From Ferrimonas kyonanensis DSM 18153 (GTDB taxonomy: Bacteria; Pseudomonadota; Gammaproteobacteria; Enterobacterales; Shewanellaceae), in the NCBI RefSeq assembly GCF_000425405.1, contig NZ_AUDJ01000042.1, positions 1 to 36,445 of the forward strand: a stretch of 36,445 bases of DNA. The letters are read 5' to 3'. Below are positions 1-12,240 of the stretch, one piece after another. Within the stretch, counting starts at the first letter, position 1. Every line of letters starts with the position of its first letter. A program made the position numbers and the translations under genes. The notes beneath the pieces were generated by a model. That model made no database searches. It had not been told where the DNA came from and saw nothing but the letters and a program-made list of their open reading frames with translations.

Positions 1-150
1 CCAGCGTGTAGGCTGCCAGGTTCGGACCACATTATGGCGCTACCTCGAGAAGGTAAAACAGACGCCGGATATACGTCCGCAAACCGACCTCATCAAAGTC
101 TTGCAGTTGCAGGGGCGTCCATATACGTCTTTTCTTAGGGAAATACCCAA

Positions 151-180
151 GCCACGTGCTCTCGCGTCCGCAAGGGCGAC
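151..180. repeat. Half copy of dispersed palindromic repeat
   Basis: The segment carries the right arm of the repeat family seen complete at 193-275 and 36319-36405: a GCCAC start followed by CTCGCG, then CGCAAGGGCGAC. The left arm is missing. The preceding 150 bases hold no gene I can support; they only contain two direct copies of ATATACGTC (about 70-78 and 122-130). Confidence 0.6.
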
Positions 181-192
181 AATTCCTCTTCT

Positions 193-275
193 GTCTTACT
201 CGCGAAGGCGGGTATCCAGTGGCTTTCTCGAGGTTAAAACCACAGCCACTGGGCCCTCGCGTTCGCAAGGGCGAC
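193..275. repeat. Complete dispersed palindromic repeat, copy A
   Basis: This 83-base unit begins GTCTTACTCGCGAAGGCGGG and ends CTCGCGTTCGCAAGGGCGAC. Each arm contains its own small palindrome (CGCGAANGCG and TCGCGTTCGCA-like), and the two arms are also complementary across TCCAGTGGCTT / AGCCACTGGG, so the whole can fold into a long hairpin. The same unit is at 36319-36405. Similarity continues about 35 bases past the right arm (GTGAGGATGGGG here, ATGAGGGTTAGG there), so the true element is probably longer than the hairpin. It resembles the REP or intergenic palindromic repeats common in proteobacteria; no transposase is present in the window. Confidence 0.8.
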
Positions 276-355
276 ATGGTGAGGATGGGGTGGTCGCGGT
301 ATGTTACTGGGCTCGCAGGGAAGTGTTGTTGGCACTAACCATCATACCGCCCTCC

Positions 356-392
356 GTCGTACCCGCGAACGCGGGTATCCAGCGTCTTTTCT
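356..392. repeat. Half copy of dispersed palindromic repeat
   Basis: The left arm of the repeat family (GTCGTACCCGCGAACGCGGG, then TATCCAGCG) lies here without a right arm. It sits immediately beyond the 3' end of the minus-strand gene ending at 406, where it could act as a transcript-stabilising hairpin or weak terminator. Confidence 0.65.
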
Positions 393-405
393 GGTACAGC
401 GGCCG

Positions 406-657
406 CTAGGCCTGGAAGCTCGACAGCGAACTGTGGCGGGTGTGTGAAGCGCTTTGAAACAACAGCAGTTCCCAGGCCAGGCTTTGCAAGGTGCCGGAAT
501 CGTTGCTGGTGAGCTCCTGCATGCAGATATCGCCAGCTTCCAGCATCTCCCTTAACTCTGACTCATTCAGGTGCAGCACCGGGCGTCCGGTCAGGGTATG
601 GAACACGGTCAGTTGGTTTGGGCTGTGATCCAGACGAGCATCAATGGTAAACAGCAT
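406..657 (-). CDS. Iron-regulated small protein of unknown function (83 aa)
   Basis: The product is an 83-residue soluble protein with no signal peptide or membrane segment. I do not recognise its family. The N-terminal half (MLFTIDARLDHSPNQLTVFH) looks like a small beta-rich fold, followed by an acidic helical stretch around residues 30-50 and a Ser/His-rich tail. ATG at 657 is chosen because GGAG lies about eight bases upstream on the coding strand. The gene stands alone: repeats follow it and a long AT-rich spacer precedes it. Its promoter is overlaid by a perfect palindromic Fur box (699-717), so expression should rise when iron is scarce. A role in iron handling is therefore inferred from regulation only. 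The good start, strong promoter and typical base composition make it a real gene. Confidence 0.75.
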   Translation of the reverse strand: MLFTIDARLDHSPNQLTVFHTLTGRPVLHLNESELREMLEAGDICMQELTSNDSGTLQSLAWELLLFQSASHTRHSSLSSFQA

Positions 658-698
658 AGTCAGGTCTCCAGAGGTCAGTTGCGAGTGAAGTTGATCTA

Positions 699-727
699 AA
701 TGATAATCATTATCATTGGGGTGTCAA
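699..727 (-). promoter_or_regulatory. Fur-repressed promoter
   Basis: Bases 699-717 read AATGATAATCATTATCATT, a perfect 9-1-9 palindrome that matches the classical Fur box. On the minus strand a perfect -35 hexamer TTGACA (722-727) is followed after 16 bases by TATCAT (700-705) as -10. The Fur box covers the spacer and the -10, the standard arrangement for repression by Fur-Fe(II). Transcription should start near 693 and read into the gene at 657. Confidence 0.9.
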
Positions 728-1272
728 GGGGAAAGTGCCAATTTGTGTCGAGGCCTGTGGTTTCCCCAGCTGACCTTACCCTGGTAAGAAATAAAACTAT
801 TATTATTCAGTTAAATAAAAGGAATGGTAATGTCCAGAGCGGCATCGAGTGTATCCGCAACAAGGATAACTTCATTTTCAAAATGAATCACATTATAACA
901 ATAAAAGAATAACCAGAATTGGTCAGTTGTGGTTTTGTTTATGTCATTAATATATAAAGGCATATCGATGGTGATAATAGTGAAAAACATTCGCTTTACA
1001 TCTTTGTCTATTCGCAAGGTGCTGATTTATAAGGAAATTAATCTTCTTTGCTTGAGTTGCTGTTTTGAGTCTCCAAATATAAAATCAATAACTTAAGCTG
1101 ACATTGCTCAAGTAAATTCTGAAATGGTTTGACCTGATAAAGTGTGATCGACTTAACGCTTCGTTTTGCACTTTGTTTTTATAACTGACTGTATTTTAAG
1201 ATCAATGAAAATTAATTAAATAAGTTCTTTTCATTTTAATTTGAACGGTATAACTTATACTCCGAATATGAC
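728..1272. other. AT-rich intergenic spacer
   Basis: About 545 bases of markedly AT-rich DNA lie between the Fur-controlled gene and the next gene. Short open frames occur on both strands, but none has both a ribosome binding site and believable composition, except a possible 18-codon frame at 830-886. I see no clear RNA gene or terminator. Confidence 0.5.
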
Positions 1273-1287
1273 TTGAAGGATTATAAG

Positions 1288-1554
1288 ATGGATTACGTAG
1301 TGTTTGGCCGGGCTAACGAAACCGATGCCGAAGAGAACTTTATCGGCTTCCATTTCGAACAGTTCGACGTTGTGGCCGATAGCGCAGAAGACGCATTGGA
1401 GCAGGCCGAAGCACAGATGTGTAGTCGACTTGATACTGTAAACCTTCTGGAGCACAAAGAGTTTCTGGGTTTTGAACTCACCGGTTTGAGTCAGAGCGAT
1501 TACCTGGCACTGAAGCCCGAGATCGAGTCTGGCGAGTTCGACCTGTTCAACTAA
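1288..1554 (+). CDS. Small acidic protein of unknown function (88 aa)
   Basis: The 88-residue product is strongly acidic and cytosolic, starting MDYVVFGRANETDAEENFIG. A predicted beta strand is followed by a helix rich in Glu and Ala around residues 30-45 and a C-terminal acidic helix. I do not recognise the family. A TTG codon at 1273 could extend it, but ATG at 1288 has GAAGGA seven bases upstream and is the better start. The gene is monocistronic: AT-rich DNA lies before it and an intrinsic terminator follows at 1697-1719. Codon use and GC content match the core genes of the window. Confidence 0.8.
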   Translation: MDYVVFGRANETDAEENFIGFHFEQFDVVADSAEDALEQAEAQMCSRLDTVNLLEHKEFLGFELTGLSQSDYLALKPEIESGEFDLFN

Positions 1555-1696
1555 CCACTCCAAGTGGACGTTTGGGGGACACCTTGCATTGAGGGTGGCA
1601 GGACGTCCGATAACAATAAAGGCAACATAATCAACAATATATTGCCGGACTGAGATGATACCTCTCGCGAGGGATGAAACAGTCAGTACTACCATG

Positions 1697-1719
1697 CCCC
1701 GGCTCTGCCGGGGTTTTTT
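1697..1719 (+). terminator. Rho-independent terminator
   Basis: CCCCGGC (1697-1703) pairs with GCCGGGG (1707-1713) around a TCT loop, followed by six T. It closes the transcript of the 88-residue gene and isolates it from the borosin locus. The 140 bases between stop codon and terminator contain further nested pairings (see findings). Confidence 0.9.
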
Positions 1720-1724
1720 CTAGC

Positions 1725-1762
1725 TGCTTTCCTACCGTTCAGTTGCTTTCCTACCCGTTCAG
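1725..1762. repeat. Tandem direct repeat, two 18/19-base units
   Basis: TGCTTTCCTACCGTTCAG (1725-1742) is followed one base later by TGCTTTCCTACCCGTTCAG (1744-1762), which differs by one inserted C. The pair lies about 50 bases before the -35 region of the borosin promoter, so it could be a pair of regulator binding sites spaced about two helical turns apart. It could also be a simple slippage duplication. Confidence 0.7.
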
Positions 1763-1809
1763 GCCTGTACGAGCCATCCCTCGATGTTGATGAAATGTTA
1801 TGCATTGGC

Positions 1810-1839
1810 TTTACCTTTGTCATAGACCATTGTTATGAT
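1810..1839 (+). promoter_or_regulatory. Putative promoter of the borosin operon
   Basis: An extended -10 element TGTTATGAT (1831-1839) lies 18 bases after a weak -35 TTTACC (1810-1815). Transcription would start near 1846 and leave a leader of about 75 bases before the precursor ATG. The leader contains a small hairpin (CCGGGT 1858-1863 with ACCTGG 1868-1873, loop CTGA). No other promoter is obvious before the methyltransferase gene, so this one probably serves the whole locus. Confidence 0.5.
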
Positions 1840-1919
1840 TTGAAAAGGTCACAGAAACCGGGTCTGAACCTGGTCAGGGTCCGCTACTGCATCGCACTAC
1901 ACTTTAGGGAATGGAAACC

Positions 1920-2135
1920 ATGTCGACACTGCTCAACTACATCAACGAATTGGATTGCAATGCCGACTTGCTGGCTGCTCATAACAAGAATCCTGTAAAA
2001 ACCATGAAGGATTTTGGTCTGAACGAAAAGCAAATTGAGGCATTTATGTCTGGAGATAAAATAAGGATTGCTAAAGAAGCAGGAATTACCGATCCAGAGT
2101 TCATAATTGTTGCTGCGCATGTACAGCAAAAGTAG
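1920..2135 (+). CDS. sonA: Borosin-type RiPP precursor peptide (LigA-like leader, SonA-like)
   Basis: This 71-residue peptide is the predicted substrate of the methyltransferase encoded at 4040. Residues 1-57 look like a LigA-type helical domain: an LLNYINELD start, then NPVKTMKDFGLNEKQIEAFMSGD, which matches the dP..al..yGLt..q..alls.GD pattern of that family. Split borosin precursors such as SonA of Shewanella oneidensis use this fold as the part bound by the methyltransferase. The short tail EFIIVAAHVQQK (60-71) would be the core; by position relative to SonA, Ile62, Ile63 or Val64 are the likely backbone N-methylation sites (inference). ATG at 1920 is preferred over ATG at 1911 because AGGGA lies nine bases before it. 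It is followed after 11 bases by the GGDEF gene. A degenerate paralogue lies at 4922-5155, sharing the HVQQ tail. Confidence 0.8.
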   Translation: MSTLLNYINELDCNADLLAAHNKNPVKTMKDFGLNEKQIEAFMSGDKIRIAKEAGITDPEFIIVAAHVQQK

Positions 2136-2146
2136 GAAATTGAAAG

Positions 2147-3970
2147 ATGCTGTCCTTTTCATTTAAGGACATGTTGATTCACGTTGTTATTTTGGCCTGC
2201 ATTATAATTGCAGGCCAAGCCGTTGCCATTGAAAACGAGTTAGAAGGCCAAGTGATGTCAATTCCTAACTTGGCTTATGAATCCCCAGAGGAAGTAAAGA
2301 AAATAATTGAGGAGCTGAAGTTAAAGGTTGATTTAATGGATGCAGAGTTGCTTGAGTACTTTATTCTGTACCAAGCTTATTATCACGCGGTTCATGAAGA
2401 ACAAGAATTAAGGTTGAGAGTTTTACAATCGTATGATTGGGAGACTTCCAAGCCGGAAGTTCAAGCAAGATATTATCAGCAAATGATAGAGATTTTTGTC
2501 AACCTTAATGATATGGATGAAGCTCTAAAATATCTGTCTTCCTCATTGGAGTTGCTCGAATTTATTGATGAACCTATGCCGAGAATGCTCATACTTCACT
2601 CTGGATACACTGTTTATTCTTCTCTTTACATGTATGAGCAAGCATTTAAGTATGCAGAAAGAATCTCTGATCTTGGCACCCAAACTAAATCGAAAAGAAT
2701 TGCTTGCTATGGAGGGGTTGATCGTGTGGAATCTCTTTTTTATTCAGGTGATTACTCAAGTGTATTGGAGCAGGTCAATGACGTAATCAACCTTTGTAAT
2801 AAAGGTATTGATCCTCTATCGTCAGATCTAATGGAAACGCTAAAAATGGTGGGTCAACTTGAGAAAGGCGAAGGAGACGCTCATTTAGCCATAGCTTTTT
2901 ATAATGAGAAAAGAAATAATAATTACGAGTACCTAGTGTATTTGGAAATGGCGATTGCAAATCATTACTTGGAGTTGTCCGATTTTGATGTCGCTGAAAG
3001 TTACTATTTGTGGGCGTATGAGAGAGTTGAGGCGTTTGGAATATTACGCCTTAAACCAAGAGTGTCTGAAGTGCTCGCCAACCTTTATCTTAAAGTGAAA
3101 GACTGGGATAAATATGTTAAATACATAAATGAGTCGATAGAATCTCATAAACAGTATGAGAAGGATCTATACGATAAGTCGCTTGTTTTTCATTTAGCAA
3201 AAATTAGTGCTTCAGATATTGAGGGGCAACTAAAGACAATTGAGGCTCAAAATAAAAGACTTCAATTGGAGAATGAATTGGCCGAAACAAAACTCGAGCA
3301 AACTCGTGTTTTACTTATTTGGTTCTCAGCAGCCTCCGTAATACTGGTGTTGGCTGTGTTGTTTGTACAAAAACAGAAGGCCAAAATTAAGGTCTCCATG
3401 GAGACTGACACCTTGACCAAAGTGTTGTCCCGGGTGAGTTTGATGGAGTCTTGTACCAAGGCGGTGGCGGAGGCGAAGCGACGGGAGCAACCGTTGTCTT
3501 TGGTCGTGTTTGATTTGGACCACTTTAAGCGGGTCAACGATACCTTCGGTCATGCAGTGGGGGACTGGGTACTGAAAACGGTGACCAGGGTGGTGCGCAA
3601 TAGCATTCGAGATAAGGATATTCTTGGCCGTTTGGGGGGCGAGGAGTTTGTTATTTGCCTGCCCAATACGGATATCGAGCAGGCCAGACTGTTGTCAGAG
3701 CGCTGCCGCGAGGGCTTAGAGCGGATCATCGCGCCTGTGGCCATCGAAAACCTGGACATCAGTGCCAGTTTCGGGGTGGCCAGGCTTGATGACAAGGTGA
3801 ACAGTCTGGATAAGCTGCTGATGACCGCCGACAAGTGCCTGTACCAGGCCAAGCACCTAGGGCGTAACCGGGTGGCGACGGTGCTGGAGGATAAGGATAT
3901 AGGGGCTTATAAGCCGTCGATGGGACTGTGTAGCCTGCAGGCGGAGCTGGGTCAGACACCACTGAAGTAG
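2147..3970 (+). CDS. Membrane sensor diguanylate cyclase (TPR-like sensor, GGDEF)
   Basis: The 607-residue protein should make cyclic di-GMP from two GTP at the inner membrane. Residues 1-28 form a signal peptide or first membrane anchor. Residues about 35-345 are an all-helical periplasmic region of TPR-like repeats. A coiled coil (about 355-386) leads to a transmembrane helix (about 388-408) and a cytoplasmic GGDEF domain (about 420-590). The active-site loop is GGEEF (497-501), an intact variant, and RDKD at 488-491 is a complete product-inhibition I-site. The DLDHFKRVND metal/substrate motif is present; there is no EAL domain. It starts 11 bases after the precursor gene, so the two are likely cotranscribed, and the methyltransferase follows after 69 bases. 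The first two thirds are AT-rich while the GGDEF part is GC-rich, with a sharp change near 3390. Confidence 0.92.
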   Translation: MLSFSFKDMLIHVVILACIIIAGQAVAIENELEGQVMSIPNLAYESPEEVKKIIEELKLKVDLMDAELLEYFILYQAYYHAVHEEQELRLRVLQSYDWETSKPEVQARYYQQMIEIFVNLNDMDEALKYLSSSLELLEFIDEPMPRMLILHSGYTVYSSLYMYEQAFKYAERISDLGTQTKSKRIACYGGVDRVESLFYSGDYSSVLEQVNDVINLCNKGIDPLSSDLMETLKMVGQLEKGEGDAHLAIAFYNEKRNNNYEYLVYLEMAIANHYLELSDFDVAESYYLWAYERVEAFGILRLKPRVSEVLANLYLKVKDWDKYVKYINESIESHKQYEKDLYDKSLVFHLAKISASDIEGQLKTIEAQNKRLQLENELAETKLEQTRVLLIWFSAASVILVLAVLFVQKQKAKIKVSMETDTLTKVLSRVSLMESCTKAVAEAKRREQPLSLVVFDLDHFKRVNDTFGHAVGDWVLKTVTRVVRNSIRDKDILGRLGGEEFVICLPNTDIEQARLLSERCREGLERIIAPVAIENLDISASFGVARLDDKVNSLDKLLMTADKCLYQAKHLGRNRVATVLEDKDIGAYKPSMGLCSLQAELGQTPLK

Positions 3971-4039
3971 GGACGCCATGGCCAGCGGTGACTTGTTTCC
4001 TGAGCCGGTTATATTTTTTAAATTTGAAGAGACTAAGTG

Positions 4040-4852
4040 ATGAGCAAACAAGGCAGTTTGGTTTGTGTGGGCTCGGGGATGCGGTTGGCGGGTCAGCTTA
4101 CCCCCAGAGCCAAGAGTTGTATTGAGCAGGCAGACGTGGTGCTGGCGGCGATGGCCAATCACCTTAGCCGACAATGGATCAAGGAGATGAGCAAGGAGTA
4201 TCGCTGTCTGCTGGATCTCTATGGTGAAGGGGGCGGTGAGGGTAAGCCGCGGGGCCAGACCTATGACGAGATGGCCGAGCGAATCATGGAGGAGGTGCGT
4301 AAGGGACGGAAGGTGTGTGCGGTGTTCTACGGCCATCCCTCGGTGTTCTCCTGCATCTCCAAGAAGGCGATCGACCTAGCTAGGGCAGAGGCGTTTCCGG
4401 CTCACATGGAACCGGGGATTTCGGCGGCGGATTGCCTGTATGCGGATCTGGAAATCGATCCGGCCAGCGCTGGCGAGCAGGCAATGGAGTGCACTCAGTT
4501 TATGATTCATCAGCGTCGCATCGATCCCAGCGCGCTGCTGATATTGTGGCAGCCCGGTGTGGCCGGGGATCTGTCCATGAAGCGTTTCGAGACTCATCAG
4601 GCGTATATCAAGTTGCTGGTGGAGAAGTTGTCCCGGAATTATCCGCTGGATCATGAGGTGATCCTCTATGAGGCGGCCACCTCACCGTTGGAGTCCACCC
4701 GCATAGAGCACCTGCCCCTAGGAAAGCTGCCCCAGGCCACCCTGAATCAGATCACTACCTTGGTGGTGCCTCCCTGCCAAGAGATGGCAACGGATAGCGT
4801 CATGCTGGACAAGCTGCAGATCCTGTCTGAATCGGTTTGGGAAACGGCTTAA
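4040..4852 (+). CDS. sonM: Borosin peptide backbone alpha-N-methyltransferase (SonM-like)
   Basis: The 270-residue enzyme belongs to the tetrapyrrole (corrin/porphyrin) methylase fold and matches the split-borosin N-methyltransferases that transfer methyl from SAM to backbone amides of a partner peptide. The N-terminus SLVCVGSGMRLAGQLTPRA (6-24) is the glycine-rich SAM loop. Tyr61, Arg71 and Tyr75 (DLY, KPR, QTY) correspond by motif to the catalytic Tyr/Arg/Tyr of OphMA, and YGHPSVF (97-103), MEPGISAADCLYADLEIDP (123-141) and LLILWQPGVAGD are family hallmarks. Unlike fungal OphMA there is no peptide core fused at the C-terminus; the protein ends after the methylase fold, as expected for a split system. 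ATG 4040 is chosen over GTG 4037 because GAAGAGA lies seven bases before it. Precursor-like sequences lie on both sides (1920 and 4922). Other tetrapyrrole methylases such as CobA or RsmI are unlikely given the motifs and context. Confidence 0.88.
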   Translation: MSKQGSLVCVGSGMRLAGQLTPRAKSCIEQADVVLAAMANHLSRQWIKEMSKEYRCLLDLYGEGGGEGKPRGQTYDEMAERIMEEVRKGRKVCAVFYGHPSVFSCISKKAIDLARAEAFPAHMEPGISAADCLYADLEIDPASAGEQAMECTQFMIHQRRIDPSALLILWQPGVAGDLSMKRFETHQAYIKLLVEKLSRNYPLDHEVILYEAATSPLESTRIEHLPLGKLPQATLNQITTLVVPPCQEMATDSVMLDKLQILSESVWETA

Positions 4853-4921
4853 ACCTAAGGACGAGTCACCGAATACAGACCCAATTATTCAAGGGGCAAC
4901 GCCCATTCTTTAAAGGCGTAA

Positions 4922-5155
4922 ATGATGGTCGAGCTGCTGATGTGCATTAATACGCTGGACAGCGATCCCATACTGGCAGAGCAGCATTAGCAGGTTCTAC
5001 AGCAGACCATGAGTGAGTATGGGGTGACCTTGGAGCAGCGGGAGCTGATGTTGCAGGAGAACTTGAAAAAGCTGTTGGGCGAAGTTTCTGATGAGGGGAC
5101 CGATAAGAAGTTGTTTGCCGTTCATGTCCAACAGAGTATCCAGACTACTGTCTAA
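4922..5155 (+). pseudogene. Decayed second borosin precursor with in-frame TAG
   Basis: Read in frame from ATG 4922/4925, this stretch gives a peptide parallel to the precursor at 1920: VELLMCINTLDSDPILAEQH, then a TAG stop at 4988-4990, then QVLQQTMSEYGVTLEQRELM and, at the end, KLFAVHVQQSIQTTV. Aligned features are LL-x2-IN-x-LD near the start, the M-x2-[YF]G turn in the middle and the A-x-HVQQ tail. An AAAGG site precedes the start by 5-8 bases. One base change at the TAG would restore 76 residues. A restart at ATG 5009 would make a 48-residue piece lacking the first helix. It lies 69 bases after the methyltransferase gene and ends just before the terminator at 5171. A sequencing error or stop readthrough are the alternatives to true decay. 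Confidence 0.75.
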
Positions 5156-5170
5156 AGCTATTATATTGAT

Positions 5171-5201
5171 AAAAAAGGGCAGCCCGATGGCTGCCCTTTT
5201 T
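5171..5201. terminator. Bidirectional intrinsic terminator
   Basis: GGGCAGCC (5177-5184) pairs perfectly with GGCTGCCC (5189-5196) around a CGAT loop, with AAAAAA before and TTTTT after. It can end both the plus-strand borosin operon (stop codon 5155) and the minus-strand his operon (stop codon 5224). Confidence 0.95.
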
Positions 5202-5223
5202 CCTTTCCAATTTCCCTGAATCT

Positions 5224-5820
5224 CTATTTATGCCGTTGTGCCAATTTGGCGATCACCTCGGGCAGAGGAACCTGTTGCTGCTGCAGCAGCACGGTGAGGT
5301 GGTACAGCAAATCGGCGCATTCATCCACCAGGTTGTCACGGTCGTTGGTGGCCGCCGCCAGGGCCACTTCCACTCCCTCTTCCCCGACTTTTTGCGCCAC
5401 CCGGCGCGGGTTACCATTGAGCAACTGGGCGGTGTAACTGCTTTGTGGGTCGGCGTCGGCCCGCTCGGCCACCACCTGGGCCAGTTTGCCCAGAAACGGC
5501 TGATTATCGAGGCCACTAAAGCAGCTGGTGGTGCCGAGGTGACAGGTGGGGCCCGCCGGAATCGCCTGCACCAGCAGGGCGTCGTTGTCGCAGTCAGTCG
5601 CCAGGTTGACCAGGGTCAGCACATTGCCGGAGCTCTCCCCCTTGGTCCATAACCGCTGCTTGGAGCGGCTGTAAAACGTCACCTTGCCGGTCTCCAGGGT
5701 AACCGCGACCGCTTCCGGGTTCATGTAGCCCAACATCAGAACCTGGCCGCTGTAGTGGTGTTGCACCACAACCGGAACCAGGTTGTCCATTTTGTTCCAG
5801 TCGATAGAGAGTGTGTTCAT
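5224..5820 (-). CDS. hisI: Bifunctional phosphoribosyl-AMP cyclohydrolase / phosphoribosyl-ATP pyrophosphatase
   Basis: This fused HisIE protein (198 aa; about 200 is usual in enterobacteria) performs steps two and three of histidine synthesis: hydrolysis of PR-ATP to PR-AMP and opening of the purine ring. Residues 1-110 are the cyclohydrolase domain, with [31 protein letters not shown] and the metal-binding [11 protein letters not shown] and [11 protein letters not shown] stretches. Residues about 112-198 are the pyrophosphatase domain with the [12 protein letters not shown] helix. It is the last gene of the operon; its ATG overlaps the hisF stop as ATGA, implying translational coupling. An open frame continues upstream of this Met in hisF antiframe, but homology begins at [13 protein letters not shown]. 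Confidence 0.97.
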
Positions 5821-6590
5821 ACGCGTACCTCGATCCCTTGTTGTTTCAGGTAGTGTTTCAGATCCATAATGTCGATCAGTTGTTTGTGGAAAACCGAGGC
5901 CGCCAGCGCACCGTCGACCCGCGCCTGGCTGAATACCTCGGCAAAGTGGGCCATGGTGCCGGCGCCACCGGAGGCGATCAGCGGCAGGTTGCAGGCCTGA
6001 CGAATGGCGCTGAGTTGGTCGACGTCGTAGCCGCGGCGTACGCCATCCTGATTCATGACATTGAGTACAATCTCTCCGGCGCCCCGACGCTCTACCTCTT
6101 CGGCCCAGTCCTGGGTGAACCACTGGGTCTGGCGGGTGGCGGTTTCGTCGCCGGTAAACTGGTACACCTTGTAGCTGTCGCCGTCGCGGTCGTACCAGGA
6201 GTCGATGCCCACCACCACGCACTGACGCCCAAAGGTGTCATTGAGGCGGTTGATTAGATCGGGGTCGGCCAGTGCCGGTGAGTTGACCGAGATCTTATCG
6301 GCGCCATCGGCCAGGATCTGGCGGGCATCGTCGATGGTCTTGATACCGCCGGCGACGCAGAAGGGGATATCCAATCTTTCCGCCACCGCACTGACCCAGC
6401 TTTTGTCGACGGTGCGACCGTCACTGGAGGCGGTAATGTCATAAAACACCAACTCGTCGGCGCCTTCGTTGGCGTAGCGACTGGCGAGGTTGAGAATGTC
6501 GCCCACCACCTCGTGGTTTCGAAACTGCACTCCTTTCACCACCTGGCCGGCTTTCACGTCCAGGCAGGGGATTATGCGTTTTGCCAGCAT
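5817..6590 (-). CDS. hisF: Imidazole glycerol phosphate synthase, cyclase subunit
   Basis: The 257-residue (beta/alpha)8 barrel uses ammonia from HisH to convert PRFAR into imidazole glycerol phosphate and AICAR. It begins [20 protein letters not shown], with catalytic Asp11 in CLDV; the second catalytic Asp is in [10 protein letters not shown]. Phosphate-binding GG motifs appear in AGGIKT and ASGGAG. The insert after GIDSWYD, ending in TQWFTQDW, is typical of gammaproteobacterial HisF. It overlaps the 3' end of hisA by 19 bases and the hisI start by a few bases, so the block is tightly coupled. Confidence 0.98.
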
Positions 6591-7309
6591 GCCAATGCCT
6601 CCTCAATGGTGAAACGGCCGGTGAGCAGCGCCTTGCCGATGATGATGCCGCCAATGCCGATGGCCTTGAGTTGGCGCAGATCCTCCAGTTCGGCAATGCC
6701 GCCGGAGGCCTGCCAGCACACTTGCGGGTACTGTTGAATCAGCCGGGCGTACAGGGCTACGTTGGGGCCGCTGAGCATGCCATCACGGTCGATGTCGGTG
6801 CACAGGACGTGTTTGAGTCCGGCCTGCAGCAACGGCGCAATCACCTCGTCGATGAGTTTGCCTGAGCCTTGTTGCCAGCCGTGGGTGGCCACCTGGGCGT
6901 TGCCGTCGGTGTCCAGCAGCAGATCCAGTGCCACGGTGATGCGCTCTGGCCCAAAGGCTTCGATCCAGCCGGCAACGGTCTGGGGCTCTCGGGCAGCCAG
7001 GGAGCCGATCACCACCTTGTCCACGCCAAGTGCCAGCAGCGATTCCACCTCCTGGCGATCGCGAATGCCACCGCCGACCTGCAGGGGGGCGTCCAGGCCC
7101 TGAGCCAGGGCGGTGATGGTGGCCAGCTGGCGCTGGGCGGGATCCTTGGCGCCATCCAGATCCACCAGGTGCAACTGGCGACTGCCAGCGTTCTGATAGG
7201 CCTGCAATTGAGCGAGAGGGTCGGTGTCGAACTGGGTGACCTGGTTAAAGTCGCCTTTTTTCAGGCGCACTACCTGGCCGTTAATGAGATCGATTGCAGG
7301 GATGATCAC
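6572..7309 (-). CDS. hisA: ProFAR isomerase (1-(5-phosphoribosyl)-5-[(phosphoribosylamino)methylideneamino]imidazole-4-carboxamide isomerase)
   Basis: HisA (245 aa, usual length) is a (beta/alpha)8 barrel that catalyses the Amadori rearrangement of ProFAR to PRFAR. The start [20 protein letters not shown] carries the catalytic Asp in AIDL, and the second catalytic Asp is in [11 protein letters not shown]. Phosphate sites VGGGIRD and ASGGIAEL are intact. The gene overlaps hisH by four bases (ATGA) and hisF by 19 bases. Confidence 0.98.
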
Positions 7310-7914
7310 GATGGCATCTCCAGAAAGTTTTGCAGTATTTTGGCGCCCACCGGGCCGCTGCGTTCGGGGTGGAACTGCACCCCCATCAGGTTGCCGCGAC
7401 CGACGGCGGCGGAAAACGTCTGTCCATAGTGACAGCGGGCCAGGGTCAGCTCCGACTCGGCCACGGCGTAGCTGTGAACAAAGTAGAGGTGGCTGCCGTC
7501 GGCAATGCCGGCAAACAGCGGGTGGTCGCCAGGGCTGATGGTGTTCCAGCCCATATGGGGCAGGGGTTGACCATCGGCCTTGAGCTTGCGACAGCGAAAC
7601 GGCAACAGGCCGGTGAGCCGGGCCTGGCCTTCGTCGCTGCTCTGGCCCAGCAGCTGCATGCCCAGACAGATCCCCAGTACAGGTTGGGTTAGCTGGCCCA
7701 GGGTCTCGAGGACACCGGAGTCACGCAGTGCCTGCATGCCCGCCGGCGCGCTGCCGACACCGGGCAGGATCACCCGGTCGCTGGCGAGGATCTGCGCCGG
7801 GTCGCGGCTGACCGTGACTTCGGCGCCCAGTCGCAGCAGCGCAAAGCGAACCGAGCTGAGGTTGGCACAGCCGGTGTCGATGATGGTAACCCGTTTCGGT
7901 TGAGACTGGCTCAT
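7306..7914 (-). CDS. hisH: Imidazole glycerol phosphate synthase, glutaminase subunit
   Basis: HisH (202 aa) is a class I glutamine amidotransferase that supplies ammonia to HisF. The triad is visible: Cys83 in GICLGMQLLG, His182 and Glu184 in VQFHPERSG. The oxyanion-strand PGVGSAPAG at 51-59 is typical. The start overlaps the hisB stop by one base (TAATG on the coding strand), and the end overlaps the hisA start by four, as expected for subunits made in fixed ratio. Confidence 0.98.
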   Translation of the reverse strand: MSQSQPKRVTIIDTGCANLSSVRFALLRLGAEVTVSRDPAQILASDRVILPGVGSAPAGMQALRDSGVLETLGQLTQPVLGICLGMQLLGQSSDEGQARLTGLLPFRCRKLKADGQPLPHMGWNTISPGDHPLFAGIADGSHLYFVHSYAVAESELTLARCHYGQTFSAAVGRGNLMGVQFHPERSGPVGAKILQNFLEMPS

Positions 7915-8984
7915 TACAGCACTCCTTTGGAGGAGGGCAACTGGTCACCTTCGATGGCGATGGCCTGACGCAGGGTGCGGCCAAACACCTTGAACAGCGC
8001 TTCCACCTTGTGGTGTTCGTTGTCGCCGTTTACCGACAGGTGCAGGGTGGCGCCCAGGCTGTCAGCCAGCGAGCGGAAAAAGTGCGGCACCATCTCGGTG
8101 CTGAGATCGCCCACCTTGTCACGGTTGAAGCTGGCCTCGAAACGCAGGTAAGGGCGGCCGGACAGATCCAGCAGGCATTGGGCCTGGGTTTCGTCCATCG
8201 GCAGGGCAAATCCGAACCGGCCAATGCCGCGCTTGTTGCCCAAGGCTTGTTTTAGCGCCGTCCCCAGGGTCAGGGCCACGTCTTCGACACTGTGGTGCTC
8301 GTCGATGTGCAGGTCGCCGCTCATGGTCAGCTCCATGGCGATGCCGCCGTGGGTGGCGATCTGCTCCAGCATGTGGTCAAAAAAGCCGACACCGGTGTTG
8401 ATCGACACCGGCCCATTGCTGTCCAGATCGACGCTGATGTTGATGTCGGTTTCCTTGGTGGTGCGGCGGGCACTGGCGCGGCGATCGCCCTGGGTTAACT
8501 GGCGAACGATGGCGTCCCAGCCATGGGTGTCACGGTCGTATTGAATGCCGGCAATGCCCATGGCCTCGGCCAGTTGCAGATCGGTGTTGCGGTCGCCGAT
8601 GACCGCCGAGCGGGTAAAGTCGATACGCCCCTGGGTCAGGAAGTCTCGAACCAGTCCCAGCTTGGGTTTGCGACAGCTGCAGTTGTCCTGATCAAAGTGG
8701 GGGCAGATCAGCACCTCATCGAAACGGACGCCCTGGCTGGTGAACAGGGCCATCATGGCGTTGTGGGGCGCATCGAAGTCCTGCTGGGGAAAGCTGTCTG
8801 TGCCCAGCCCGTCCTGGTTGGACACCATTACCAGCACATAGCCGGCTTGCTGCAGCGCCAGCAGGGCCGGTACTACACCGGGCTCAAATACCAGCTTTTC
8901 CAGTGAATCCAGCTGTTTGTCGATGGCAGGCTCCTCTACCAGAGTGCCATCGCGGTCGATAAAGAGGATGGGTTGTTGGCTCAT
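7914..8984 (-). CDS. hisB: Bifunctional histidinol-phosphatase / imidazoleglycerol-phosphate dehydratase
   Basis: The 356-residue fusion has an N-terminal HAD phosphatase domain (1-165) with the DRDGT nucleophile motif (Asp10, Asp12), a Zn-binding Cys/His cluster in [15 protein letters not shown], and the motif [10 protein letters not shown]. The C-terminal dehydratase domain (about 166-356) has [14 protein letters not shown] and [14 protein letters not shown] metal sites and a second [12 protein letters not shown] motif. It therefore catalyses both dehydration of IGP and dephosphorylation of histidinol phosphate. The fused form is characteristic of gammaproteobacteria. Three bases or fewer separate it from its neighbours. 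Confidence 0.98.
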
Positions 8985-8986
8985 TG

Positions 8987-10045
8987 TTATGCATCCTGTC
9001 GGGGTTGTTGTAGGGCGGGTTCCAGTGCGGCCATCAAGGTGGCCATCTCCGATTCACTGCCGATGCTGACCCTCAGCCAGCCTGGCAACGCCGAGTAGGC
9101 GCGGATCAAAATGCCTTTGCCGGCCAGCTCAGTCAGCAATGCGTCGGCGTTCTCGGCTTCAAACAGCACAAAGTTGCTGGCGGAGTCGAGGATGGTGCCG
9201 ACGCCGGGCAGGGCGTCCAGTGCCGTTATCAGTGCCTGGCGTCGGGCATTGAGTTGACTGACCTGACTCTGCATGCGGCGAATGCCGAAATTACTCAGGG
9301 TCTCCAGGGCCAGGTCGCTAACGGGGACCGGCACCGGATAGGGGGCGATCACCTTTTCCAACATGGCGATGATGTCGTCATTGGCAAGTACGAAGCCACA
9401 GCGGGCCCCGGCCAGGGCAAACGCCTTCGACAGGGTTCGCAGGATCACCAGGTTGGGAGTGGTGGCAATGGACTTGGCCAGGCTCTGCTGCGGACAGAAC
9501 TCGATGTAGGCTTCGTCAATGACCACCAGAGTGTCGGGCAGCGCCTGTGCCAGTTGCAGCAGTTCGGCGGTCGGCACCAGAGTACCGGTGGGATTGTTGG
9601 GATTGCAGACGAACAGCAATTTGGCGTCACGCCCAGCGTCCACCAGTGCCTGGGGCAGAGTGTACCCCTGCTGCCAGGGAATTGCCTGGTAGTCGACACC
9701 ACAGGTTTCGGCACTGATGCGGTACATGCCGTAACTGGGCGTCAGGCTGACGACCCTATCCTGGCCGGGCACACAAAAGGCTCGAATCAACAGCTCAATG
9801 CCTTCGTCGGCACCGCGGCTGATCAGCACTTGCGATGGGGCAATGGCGGCATAATCGGCGTAGGCCTGGCGCAGTTGCGGCGGTTGGCAGTCCGGATAGC
9901 GATTGATGCCGGCTACATTGGCATTGCGCCAGGGACTTTCGTTGGCATTAAGCCAGACGTTGCCACCGCTGGCACTACGCCGGGCAGAGGCGTAGGGCGT
10001 CAATTCCCTTAGCTGTGGGCAACAGAGTCGTTGGGCCAGGCTCAT
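8987..10045 (-). CDS. hisC: Histidinol-phosphate aminotransferase
   Basis: HisC (352 aa) is a PLP-dependent class I/II aminotransferase that moves the amino group from glutamate to imidazole-acetol phosphate. The PLP lysine is Lys207 in [25 protein letters not shown] (147-154) and DEAYIEF (177-183) bind the cofactor. The N-terminal LTPY motif and LNANESPW are typical of HisC. The start overlaps the hisD stop by four bases. Confidence 0.98.
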
Positions 10046-11340
10046 GAGTCGCTCCTTGCGGTTGATGGAGTTTGCAGGCGCAGGGCCACGGCATTGGCGT
10101 GGGCATCCAGGCCTTCGGCATCGGCCAGAGTCATCACGGTATTCGCCAGTCCCAGTAAGCCGTCTCGGCTGAGTTGCTGCACCGTATAACGGCGGCAGAA
10201 GTCGGCCAACGACAGGCTGGAAGCACTGCGGGAGGCACCGTAGGTGGGCAGGACGTGATTGGTACCACTGGCGTAGTCGCCCACAGATTCTGGTGACCAG
10301 CGGCCCAGGAAGATGGAGCCGGCGGCGCGCAGGGAGGGCAGCAGTGCCCGCGGGTCGTCGGTTTGCACTATCAAGTGCTCCGGACCGTAGCGATTGGAAA
10401 CGTCACAGGCCTGCGCCAGGGTGTCACAGATCAGAGTGCGGCTCTGGGCCAGGGCCTGGGTGGCGATCGCTCGTCGACTCAGCTTGGACAATTGGATTTG
10501 CAACTGAGCATCGACCTGGTTGGCAAACTGCTGGCTCAGGCACACCAGCATCGCCTGGCTGTCTTCCCCGTGCTCTGCCTGAGACAGCAGATCGGCCGCT
10601 ACAAACGCCGGGCTGGCGTTGTCATCGGCGATCACTAACACTTCGGAGGGCCCGGCGGGCATGTCGATGGCGGTGCCGCTGACGCTTACCTGAGTCTTGG
10701 CTTCGGTGACAAAGCGGTTGCCCGGGCCGAAAATCTTATCGACCCGAGGCACGGTTTCGGTACCGTAGGCCAGGGCTGCGATGGCCTGGGCACCGCCGAC
10801 CGGAAACAGCTGCTGAATGCCACAGCGCCAGGCGGCGTAGCAGATGGCGTCGGAAACCGGTGGTGGTGTCGCCATCACCCGAACGCGGCAACCGGCGATG
10901 CGGGCGGGCAGCGCCTGCATCAATACCGAGGAGACCAGTGGTGCACTGCCGCCGGGCACGTACAATCCGACTCGCTCGATGGCTTCACTGCGCAGCTCAC
11001 AGCGCACTCCGGGTTGGGTTTCCACCTCGACCGTGGTGAACGCCTGAGCGCGATGAAAGGCATCCAGGTTGTCGATGGCGGTGTCGATGGCCTGCTTGAG
11101 GCTGTCTTCGATACCGGCGCCGCGGCGAGCCAGTTCGTCACTGTCGTACACCAGTTGCTCCGGGCGCTGGCCGTCGAAGCGTTCACTGAGTTGCACCAGC
11201 GCTTGGTCCCCTTGCAGCCGAACCTGGCGCAAAATTGCGGTTACCGACTCGCTGAGGCTGGCATTTTGTACCTGCTCGGCGCGAGCCAGCACGGCGGCGC
11301 GGGTCTGAGGATCCAGTTGAGTCCAGTTGTAACTTTGCAT
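10042..11340 (-). CDS. hisD: Histidinol dehydrogenase
   Basis: The 432-residue enzyme oxidises histidinol to histidine in two NAD-dependent steps with a catalytic zinc. Recognisable motifs are GLYVPGGSAPLVSSVLM, VGGAQAIAALAYGTE, DMPAGPSEVLVIADD, the zinc-ligand stretch DLLSQAEHGEDS, and the catalytic Glu/His in YGPEHLIV. Length matches E. coli HisD (434). Only three bases separate it from the hisG stop. Confidence 0.98.
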   Translation of the reverse strand: MQSYNWTQLDPQTRAAVLARAEQVQNASLSESVTAILRQVRLQGDQALVQLSERFDGQRPEQLVYDSDELARRGAGIEDSLKQAIDTAIDNLDAFHRAQAFTTVEVETQPGVRCELRSEAIERVGLYVPGGSAPLVSSVLMQALPARIAGCRVRVMATPPPVSDAICYAAWRCGIQQLFPVGGAQAIAALAYGTETVPRVDKIFGPGNRFVTEAKTQVSVSGTAIDMPAGPSEVLVIADDNASPAFVAADLLSQAEHGEDSQAMLVCLSQQFANQVDAQLQIQLSKLSRRAIATQALAQSRTLICDTLAQACDVSNRYGPEHLIVQTDDPRALLPSLRAAGSIFLGRWSPESVGDYASGTNHVLPTYGASRSASSLSLADFCRRYTVQQLSRDGLLGLANTVMTLADAEGLDAHANAVALRLQTPSTARSDS

Positions 11341-11343
11341 GCC

Positions 11344-12240
11344 TTACCCCAGCATCTTCTCTATGGGCAATACCAGAATCGAGCTGGCACCCAGGGCTTT
11401 GAGCTGTTCCATGGTTTCCCAGAACAGGGTTTCGGAGCTGACGGCGTGCAGGGCGACCCGCTCGCTGTCTTGAGCCAGGGGCAGGATGGTGGGGTTTTCG
11501 GCCCCGGGCAGCAGTGCCACCACCTGATCTAAGGCCGCTTTGGGGGCGTGCAGCATGATGTACTTGCTTTCACGGGCCTGAATCACGCCGTTGATTCGGG
11601 TCAGCAGTTTGTCCACCAACTCTTGGTTGGCCTCCGTCAATGGACGTTGGCTCTGTATCAGGGTTGCCTTGGAGCGAAACATTACCTCACACTCCTTCAG
11701 GCCATTGGCTTCCAGGGTGGCGCCAGTGCTGACCAGATCGCAGATGGCGTCTGCCAGTCCGGCTCGGGGTGCCACTTCGACCGAGCCTTTGAGCATGCAG
11801 TCGCTGAAGGGAACGCCGGCTTGATCCATAAAGCGGGCCAGCAGATAGGGGTAGGAGGTGGCAATGCGGGTATTGGCCAGCGAGGCGGGACCGGTGTAAT
11901 CCATGTCCTTGTCCACGGCTAATGACAGGCGACAGCCACCAAAGTCCAGTCGCCGCAGAGTCGAGAATTCGGCCGGTCGGGTCATGGCCTGACGCTCCAG
12001 TCGCTCCTCTTCGAGGACGTTCTCACCGACGATGCCCAGATCAACCACGCCGTCCATCACCAGACCCGGAATGTCGTCATCGCGAACCCGCAAAATATCG
12101 ATGGGCAGGTTTTGACAGTGGCTCAGCAGGCGTTGATCCCGCAGGTTGAGCTTGAGTCCGGCGCCCTTGAGCAGGGTTTGGCATTCATCGGCCAGGCGGC
12201 CGGATTTTTGGATGGCGATGCGCAGTCGTTGTTGTGTCAT
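11344..12240 (-). CDS. hisG: ATP phosphoribosyltransferase (long form)
   Basis: HisG catalyses the first committed step, joining PRPP to ATP, and is the site of feedback inhibition by histidine. The 298-residue length and C-terminal ACT-like region (about 225-298, ending in LPIEKMLG) mark the long, allosteric form. Catalytic-domain motifs include [13 protein letters not shown] at the start, [20 protein letters not shown] text at 65-80 and the PRPP loop [27 protein letters not shown]. An open frame extends upstream to 12438, but [10 protein letters not shown] at 12240 is the conserved start and the extra segment covers the attenuator. Confidence 0.97.

Follow-up and report, generated by a model that had tools for sequence, protein, structure and literature searches.

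The window analysed here, a 36,445-base contig in the 4.93-Mb assembly of a marine, Ferrimonas-like bacterium (closest to F. sediminum, F. futtsuensis and F. sediminicola among relatives with a name), carries a split-borosin locus in which a gene for a sensor diguanylate cyclase stands between the genes for the precursor peptide (sonA) and the peptide backbone N-methyltransferase (sonM). We consider it rather probable that this locus is a peptide-signal cassette with its own receptor, in which a methylated signal would act through a periplasmic tetratricopeptide repeat (TPR) domain to control cyclic di-GMP (c-di-GMP). The sequences themselves show the gene content, the conservation, the topology motifs, the exchange of the module and the co-segregation of peptide core and sensor domain. 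In the mechanism proposed, SonM would bind the helical leader of SonA and N-methylate amides of the peptide backbone close to the C terminus (I63 and A65, going by homology), the core would be cut off and leave the cytoplasm, and the periplasmic TPR superhelix would bind the mature peptide and gate the cytoplasmic GGDEF domain, the peptide thereby controlling c-di-GMP. The end of sonA that codes for the core and the half of the cyclase gene that codes for TPR are exchanged jointly as a polymorphic module, which would give specificity groups like those of agr or the ComX pherotypes; SonM and GGDEF are held constant. The initial annotation of this locus as a two-part split borosin recognised both biosynthetic parts and missed the 607-residue gene (2147-3970) that fills the 2 kb said to separate them; its interval, which ran to position 5155, also takes in a broken second SonA-like gene (4922-5154) that it passed over. 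The two parts it named are ordinary for the family, and it is the middle gene and the exchangeable module that make a testable case for a signal and a receptor.

The precursor and the enzyme are well supported by sequence comparison as a type IV split-borosin pair of the SonM/SonA kind. The 71-residue peptide predicted at 1920-2135 is confirmed: it aligns by phmmer to SonA (7ltc_B), residues 1-67 onto 1-67 without gaps, and ends in EFIIVAAHVQQK, a layout that reads as a helical leader of about residues 1-58 followed by a core/tail, PEFIIVAAHVQQK, at residues 59-71. Its description as LigA-like holds less directly, as the window peptide has no Pfam LigA match and the SonA of a locus with the crystallised SonM (L143, below) reaches LigA exactly at the 25.3-bit cut-off. 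The enzyme proved, as predicted, to be a discrete SonM-like protein with no fused core, matching SonM (7ltc_A) at E = 1.5e-72 and fungal OphMA at about 1e-38, and its Y61/R71/Y75 align to Y58/R67/Y71 of SonM, the catalytic Tyr/Arg/Tyr residues named in the text of PMC8429565. Its best match to a tetrapyrrole methylase is far weaker (2.8e-5), and identity as a cobalamin or siroheme methylase was rejected on this comparison; the grouping with cobalamin or RsmI enzymes that had been named beforehand as a refutation was examined by sequence and did not emerge. The catalytic residues and the sequence matches thus support the borosin assignment, with a discrete SonM/OphMA-type enzyme and a separate precursor matching SonA as in type IV split borosins. 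The methylation sites given for SonA in the same paper are L63 and I65 (PMC8429565); their counterparts in the ungapped alignment are I63 and A65, about one residue away from the Ile62-Val64 originally proposed.

The middle gene encodes a protein with an N-terminal hydrophobic signal/anchor, a TPR domain, a single transmembrane (TM) helix and a GGDEF domain (Table 1). GGDEF is recognised by Pfam at 5.6e-42 and TPR_12 at 1.1e-5, below the cut-off of that family, and the hydrophobic stretches span residues 1-32 and 385-409, with the strongest hydrophobic 19-mer starting at residue 389. GGEEF and RDKD motifs lie within residues 488-501, with RDKD upstream of GGEEF and presumably forming a product-inhibition site. 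Two cysteines (C187 and C217 in the window) are kept in 70 of 71 TPR domains, a pair that would fit a periplasmic disulfide, and together with the N-terminal signal/anchor they suggest that the TPR domain lies outside the cytoplasm. An AlphaFold2 (AF2) model of residues 28-395 (predicted local distance difference test score 87.5, from a 4-row alignment) was compared with known structures by Foldseek; eukaryotic LGN came first, followed otherwise mainly by Rap and NprR among the 50 matches listed. The best non-eukaryotic matches listed were Rap (phage and Bacillus) and NprR (8rsv, phage Rap with its pheromone, E = 1.5e-5; 4gyo, 3.0e-5; 4gpk, 1.6e-4), several of them pheromone-bound, and this likeness of the model supports peptide binding.

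Table 1 Features of the split-borosin cassette in the window
Feature	Position	Strand	Basis
SonA-like split-borosin precursor, 71 aa	1920..2135	+	phmmer to SonA 7ltc_B, E = 3.7e-5
Hypervariable module, from about codon 22 of sonA to the cyclase TM region	1950..3400	+	DNA-identity profile
607-aa sensor diguanylate cyclase (N-terminal hydrophobic signal/anchor, TPR, one TM helix, GGDEF)	2147..3970	+	
TPR sensor domain, aa 28-385, two conserved Cys (C187/C217)	2228..3301	+	AF2 model; Foldseek; Cys in 70/71 homologues
GGDEF output domain, about aa 420-575	3404..3871	+	Pfam; aa 420-607 85-93% identical across Ferrimonas species
SonM-like peptide backbone N-methyltransferase, 270 aa	4040..4852	+	7ltc_A E = 1.5e-72; Pfam TP_methylase 7.1e-23
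Relic of a second SonA-like precursor	4922..5154	+	In-frame TAG at 4988-4990 breaks the gene

The sensor is a constant companion of SonM. Our first set comprised 72 SonM loci (the window, a second locus of the same genome, 10 from other Ferrimonas and 60 other stretches drawn mostly from the higher-scoring SonM matches), and a TPR-domain protein longer than 300 residues is present in 71 of these, being missing in L096; it lies within 1 kb of SonM in 68 of 72, on the same strand in 67 of those 68. SonA stands directly upstream of it (within 400 bp, same strand) in 61 of 72 loci, the 11 without SonA directly beside the TPR gene being counted as misses, and the two genes often abut. Beyond this set, the partner was found in all 13 further SonM loci, five of which had been picked because the TPR profile had missed their genomes, and in all 20 Shewanella loci, each of which carries SonM, SonA and the TPR protein. 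One of these 20, L143, encodes a SonM 100% identical over residues 2-258 to the crystallised SonM and a SonA that agrees with the 67 printed residues of 7ltc_B; there the order is SonM-SonA-TPR-GGDEF, with the cyclase open reading frame (ORF) starting on the base next to the sonA stop.

What changes is the output. GGDEF is carried by 67 of the 71 first-set partners, the other four being a TPR-hybrid kinase (L111), TPR alone (L079 and L081) and a cyclase in two ORFs (L103); among the 13 further loci we counted hybrid kinases in L122, L123, L124 and L127, kinases in L128, L129, L130 and L132, TPR only in L125, L126 and L131, and GGDEF in L140 and L141. Pfam was used to check L111, L122, L124, L126 and L128-L132, and L123 and L127 were judged by length and C-terminal end. 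The TPR sensor is therefore the constant partner, with an output that varies between GGDEF, HisKA/HATPase kinase, hybrid kinase with receivers, and none. Tandem arrays of TPR-only genes without an output domain occur beside SonA/SonM in L125 (3917-8721, minus strand, four copies) and L126 (4389-7910, plus strand, three copies, two of which were checked by Pfam).

The association extends across the order. In a survey of 394 genomes, in which strong SonM meant a best E below 1e-30 from a list read by hand and TPR scoring considered five candidates per genome only, the TPR domain was detected at E <= 1e-20 in 87 of 95 strong-SonM genomes vs 7 of 299 others (Fisher p about 1e-68, uncorrected for relatedness, the genomes not being independent). 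Eight SonM-positive genomes were missed by the TPR profile, and in all five of these that were opened a TPR gene stands beside SonM. Within 14 Ferrimonas genomes, 11 TPR matches cover at least 338 of the 371 profile positions, and they fall on 11 of the 12 SonM loci (six genomes); the twelfth locus (locus b of G001, L030) was missed by the profile, yet has a TPR-GGDEF ORF. The other eight genomes hold only TPR matches of 268 positions or fewer, and include G007, whose marginal methylase match (2.4e-4) was not counted as SonM.

A DNA-identity profile places a hypervariable module inside this otherwise conserved cassette, running from within sonA to the TM region of the cyclase. Against three sister species the module, about 1.4 kb of sonA 3' part and TPR, is 37-67% identical (bins 2100-3150), vs 70-95% for GGDEF and SonM (bins 3450-4650). 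Compared with L024, the window shows 91-97% identity upstream (one bin at 75%), 39-51% in bins 2100-3150 and 94% at 3450, with a second drop to 8-39% in bins 4800-5100, the stretch from sonM to the his genes, in which the broken precursor lies. At this locus (locus a) in five Ferrimonas species, the proteins follow the same division: SonM (91-96%), residues 420-607 with GGDEF (85-93%) and HisF (89-99%) are conserved, and the TPR domain (21-43%), SonA leader (47-74%) and tail (15-46%) are variable. Synonymous differences per site are higher in the TPR part (0.74-0.87) than in SonM (0.29-0.52), which points to replacement by old, divergent alleles; fast evolution alone seems not to account for the locus-a module. 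The ratio of nonsynonymous to synonymous differences (pN/pS) in SonM is 0.07-0.10 over four pairs including the window. Dips of the same kind recur in the pairs L063/L065, L069/L071, L075/L082, L143/L144, L152/L151 and L156/L157. The TPR domains of L161 and L162 are 100% identical.

The genome of the window holds a second SonA - TPR-GGDEF - SonM cassette (L011, G000:C12:18000-37000; SonM at G000:C12:27216-27980), and the SonM of this locus b is 36% identical to that of the window. The two pairs profiled at locus b, L011/L029 and L032/L033, show no such drop (TPR 91% and 95% identical), vs 27% and 28% for their locus-a counterparts (WIN/L024, WIN being the window, and L025/L026); in a third locus-b copy, L031, TPR identity is 68-69% and SonM identity 86%. 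Low identity as a general property of the sensor family was rejected on these locus-b values and on synonymous differences far higher than those of SonM.

The peptide core and the TPR domain change together. The clearest case is an S. oneidensis-like group of 16 loci with SonM at least 84% mutually identical (88-100% to L143), in which the TPR domains fall into two classes, 65-97% identical within class I, 76-99% within class II and 46-57% between them. The adjacent SonA core, its type read by eye, is of the SYLVISHGNGD type in all nine class I loci and of the [AT]F[LVI]LVNHGNN type in all seven of class II, so that core type matches TPR class at every one of the 16 loci; SonM is not sorted in this way, being up to 99% identical across classes. 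On a tree of upstream flank and SonM DNA the class changes four times, and a single class II clade is rejected by the approximately unbiased (AU) test (p-AU 3.6e-42), as is simple descent of the classes with the species. Core type goes with class in four of four independent pairs (sign test p = 0.125), a count that follows from the use of one label for TPR class and core type, since the two agree in all 16. Extra SonA genes proximal to SonM occur in L147, L085 and L154; in all three the core resembles that of the other class and the C terminus is changed and lengthened, and each looks like a displaced former allele, a possible footprint of module replacement.

This covariation is not confined to the 16 loci. 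Among 15 disjoint pairs with SonM at least 90% identical, six of which come from the S. oneidensis-like group, TPR identity below 60% goes with tail identity below 60% in seven of seven, and TPR identity of at least 60% with tail identity of at least 60% in eight of eight. In partial Mantel tests, a method prone to false positives, on the 59 of 72 loci that remained after the exclusion of 13 lacking one of the four parts (missing tail distances set to the mean), the tail correlates with TPR (r = 0.45, p = 0.0005) and shows no link to SonM (r = -0.01), and the leader follows both (SonM r = 0.24, TPR r = 0.32). A polymorphic peptide that co-segregates with a polymorphic sensor region, joined to a conserved output, is thus seen here, with one subtype, described below, not reaching significance.

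Several points weigh against the reading of the locus as a signal-receptor cassette. Just four independent class switches were resolved, and the sign test has too few pairs to reach significance. The leader tracks TPR as well, with the partial r given above and, over 25 disjoint pairs, a correlation with TPR of rho 0.78 for the leader vs 0.73 for the tail; linkage therefore accounts for part of the signal. The proneness of partial Mantel tests to false positives counts here too. Without Ferrimonas the tail also weakly tracks GGDEF (r = 0.13, p = 0.0035), and in the 12 Ferrimonas loci alone tail-SonM (r = 0.61) stands beside tail-TPR (0.64). In subtype 2 (20 loci with conserved VC..PAED-like cores) the tail-TPR correlation is not significant (r = 0.155, p = 0.14), the subtypes having been set by pattern, by which L063 and L071, seemingly of subtype 2, fell into subtype 1. 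In L103, L147, L149 and L150 the cyclase gene falls into two ORFs, so the cyclase can be lost, and the TPR-only arrays of L125 and L126 fit a receptor poorly. Within the window cassette we recognised neither an exporter nor a maturation protease, on the basis of the ORF list of positions 1-12000 and a family scan of selected proteins. On the structural side, a eukaryotic protein, LGN, tops the Foldseek list, TM-scores are mostly 0.5-0.6 and TPR folds are mutually alike, so that peptide binding is supported, not proven. Finally, all seven places chosen for inspection (L133-L139) hold TPR-GGDEF genes that belong to this sensor family and have no detected SonA/SonM nearby.

This last observation lends itself to an explanation in which the window holds an ordinary type IV split-borosin locus and the co-transcribed TPR-cyclase senses some other cue, for example from the envelope or redox state, and not the peptide. 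The lack of significant core-TPR covariation in subtype 2 speaks for it as well. We nevertheless regard it as unlikely, given that TPR class and core are matched at all 16 loci of the S. oneidensis-like group with SonM unsorted, that the module begins inside sonA and ends by the TM region, and that outputs are swapped while TPR and SonA stay. Slightly less likely still, in our estimate, is polymorphic antagonism, in which the methylated peptide would be a bacteriocin-like effector against close kin, the TPR protein its immunity or danger-sensing partner, and the diversity and the displaced copies a product of warfare and not of communication. Module polymorphism would fit effector-immunity evolution, as would the displaced SonA copies of the other class (three of three two-copy loci in the 16-locus group) and the TPR-only tandem arrays; the cores, however, are short and near-constant within a class, and a signalling domain is joined to most of the TPR partners, GGDEF to the great majority of those in the first set and kinases elsewhere.

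TPR domains commonly bind protein C-termini, and the TPR protein might accordingly handle the SonA precursor as a chaperone, anchor or export adaptor, with GGDEF reporting precursor load and no extracellular peptide. The frequent abutment of sonA and the TPR gene and the tracking of TPR by the leader suit this account, which we judge very improbable because the signal/anchor and the two cysteines suggest a TPR domain outside the cytoplasm, away from SonA/SonM, and because over the 59 loci the tail tracks TPR and not SonM. The slimmest chance is that the window copy is decaying and inactive, as the broken precursor might indicate: the reading frames of the remaining precursor, of SonM and of the cyclase, which retains its GGEEF, are open, and SonM has the low pN/pS given above. 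The pieces of the broken copy, searched separately, match sonA2 of the relative L025 (2.9e-8 and 9.3e-10) and the SonA profile, and L025 has at the equivalent position an intact sonA2 plus a third, broken copy.

Among characterised systems, the nearest is SonM/SonA of S. oneidensis MR-1 (PDB 7ltc; PMC8429565), which shares with the window a separate enzyme, a precursor of about 71 residues, the same spacing and Tyr/Arg/Tyr; the main text of that paper does not mention the sensor gene (GGDEF, TPR, tetratricopeptide and diguanylate are absent). The locus with an identical SonM also has TPR-GGDEF directly after sonA. The window differs in its order, sonA - TPR-GGDEF - sonM with the broken second sonA after sonM, and in its core, FIIVAAHVQQK vs SYLVISHGNGD. 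The modelled TPR superhelix is similar in length to those of the RRNPP receptors Rap and NprR, its best non-eukaryotic structural matches. RRNPP receptors are cytoplasmic proteins of Gram-positive bacteria or phages with helix-turn-helix or phosphatase function, whereas the window TPR domain is predicted to be periplasmic and TM-joined to GGDEF, with kinase outputs in relatives. The sensor would work like an RRNPP receptor; its signal/anchor, TM helix, GGDEF and conserved cysteines set it outside that family.

The cassette stands in the same relation to agr and ComQXPA. In agr, variability is concentrated in the C terminus of the peptide and the N-terminal domain of the receptor. The same holds for ComQXPA, in which, according to PMC4008528, it is the C terminus of ComX and the N-terminal domain of ComP that differ, against a conserved cytoplasmic part. 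Small precursor, modifying enzyme, membrane receptor and variability in peptide C terminus and sensor region are common to all three; the window cassette differs in that the modification would be backbone N-methylation rather than isoprenylation or a thiolactone, the enzyme lies outside the variable module, the output is mostly a cyclase and the host is Gram-negative, and, relative to ComQXPA, in the fold and location of the receptor. The window proteins are SonM, SonA and TPR-GGDEF and not homologues of ComQ/ComP/ComA or AgrB/C/D, and the cassette would work like these systems without being one of them. Control of a C-terminal GGDEF by an N-terminal TPR is described for RcbB of Vibrio vulnificus, where the partner is another TPR protein, RcbA; borosin genes are not mentioned in the abstract and section 13 of that paper (PMC12282931).

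Elsewhere in the sample, genes near SonM include candidate maturation enzymes. A pepsin-like aspartyl protease (Pfam Asp 1.1e-18) lies at 2994-4277 in L063, with similar genes in 21 of 112 scanned loci, one of which, L137, has no SonM; a GNAT acetyltransferase lies at 4610-5164 in L063, with similar genes in 29 of 112. Both occur mostly in loci with VC..PAED-like cores and were not seen in the window cassette. In L108 (oriented stretch 6228-6662), a precursor-like ORF contains tandem near-copies of ALIITPKAQASHK and looks like a precursor with several cores, from which the unit of the mature peptide could be defined. In the window, a 19-bp unit in two tandem copies (1725-1762) lies about 160 bp upstream of sonA, and two small ORFs (1288-1554, plus strand; 406-657, minus strand), without a Pfam family, have close counterparts upstream of Ferrimonas cassettes.

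The neighbourhood is at least partly in print, as a figure legend of PMC11395268 names a GGDEF domain among borosin architectures. Among openly licensed PMC papers, from which scope key subscription papers fall out, we found no paper on a borosin with a diguanylate cyclase or c-di-GMP and no statement on a co-segregating core and sensor. The enzymology of type IV split borosins has been studied in detail, with no final product as of 2021 by the account in PMC8429565; the description of the final product as unknown in the initial annotation is at least partly outdated, as Crone et al. (RSC Chem Biol 2023) announce in their title a borosin natural product from bacteria.

The present proposal gives type IV split borosins a putative function. 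We see about an even chance that the split borosins of Shewanella, Ferrimonas and their relatives form a separate Gram-negative class of peptide communication systems, in which ribosomal pheromones with a methylated backbone are read by periplasmic TPR receptors with c-di-GMP or histidine kinases as output, and exchangeable signal-receptor modules split near-identical strains into specificity groups. If the proposal is true, methylated peptides of ribosomal origin are the means by which Shewanella and Ferrimonas communicate and set c-di-GMP, which would probably decide between biofilm and motility. Backbone methylation would then yield a protease-resistant, perhaps membrane-permeable signal, and near-identical strains would divide into two communication groups, which the S. 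oneidensis-like class I and class II loci make directly testable.

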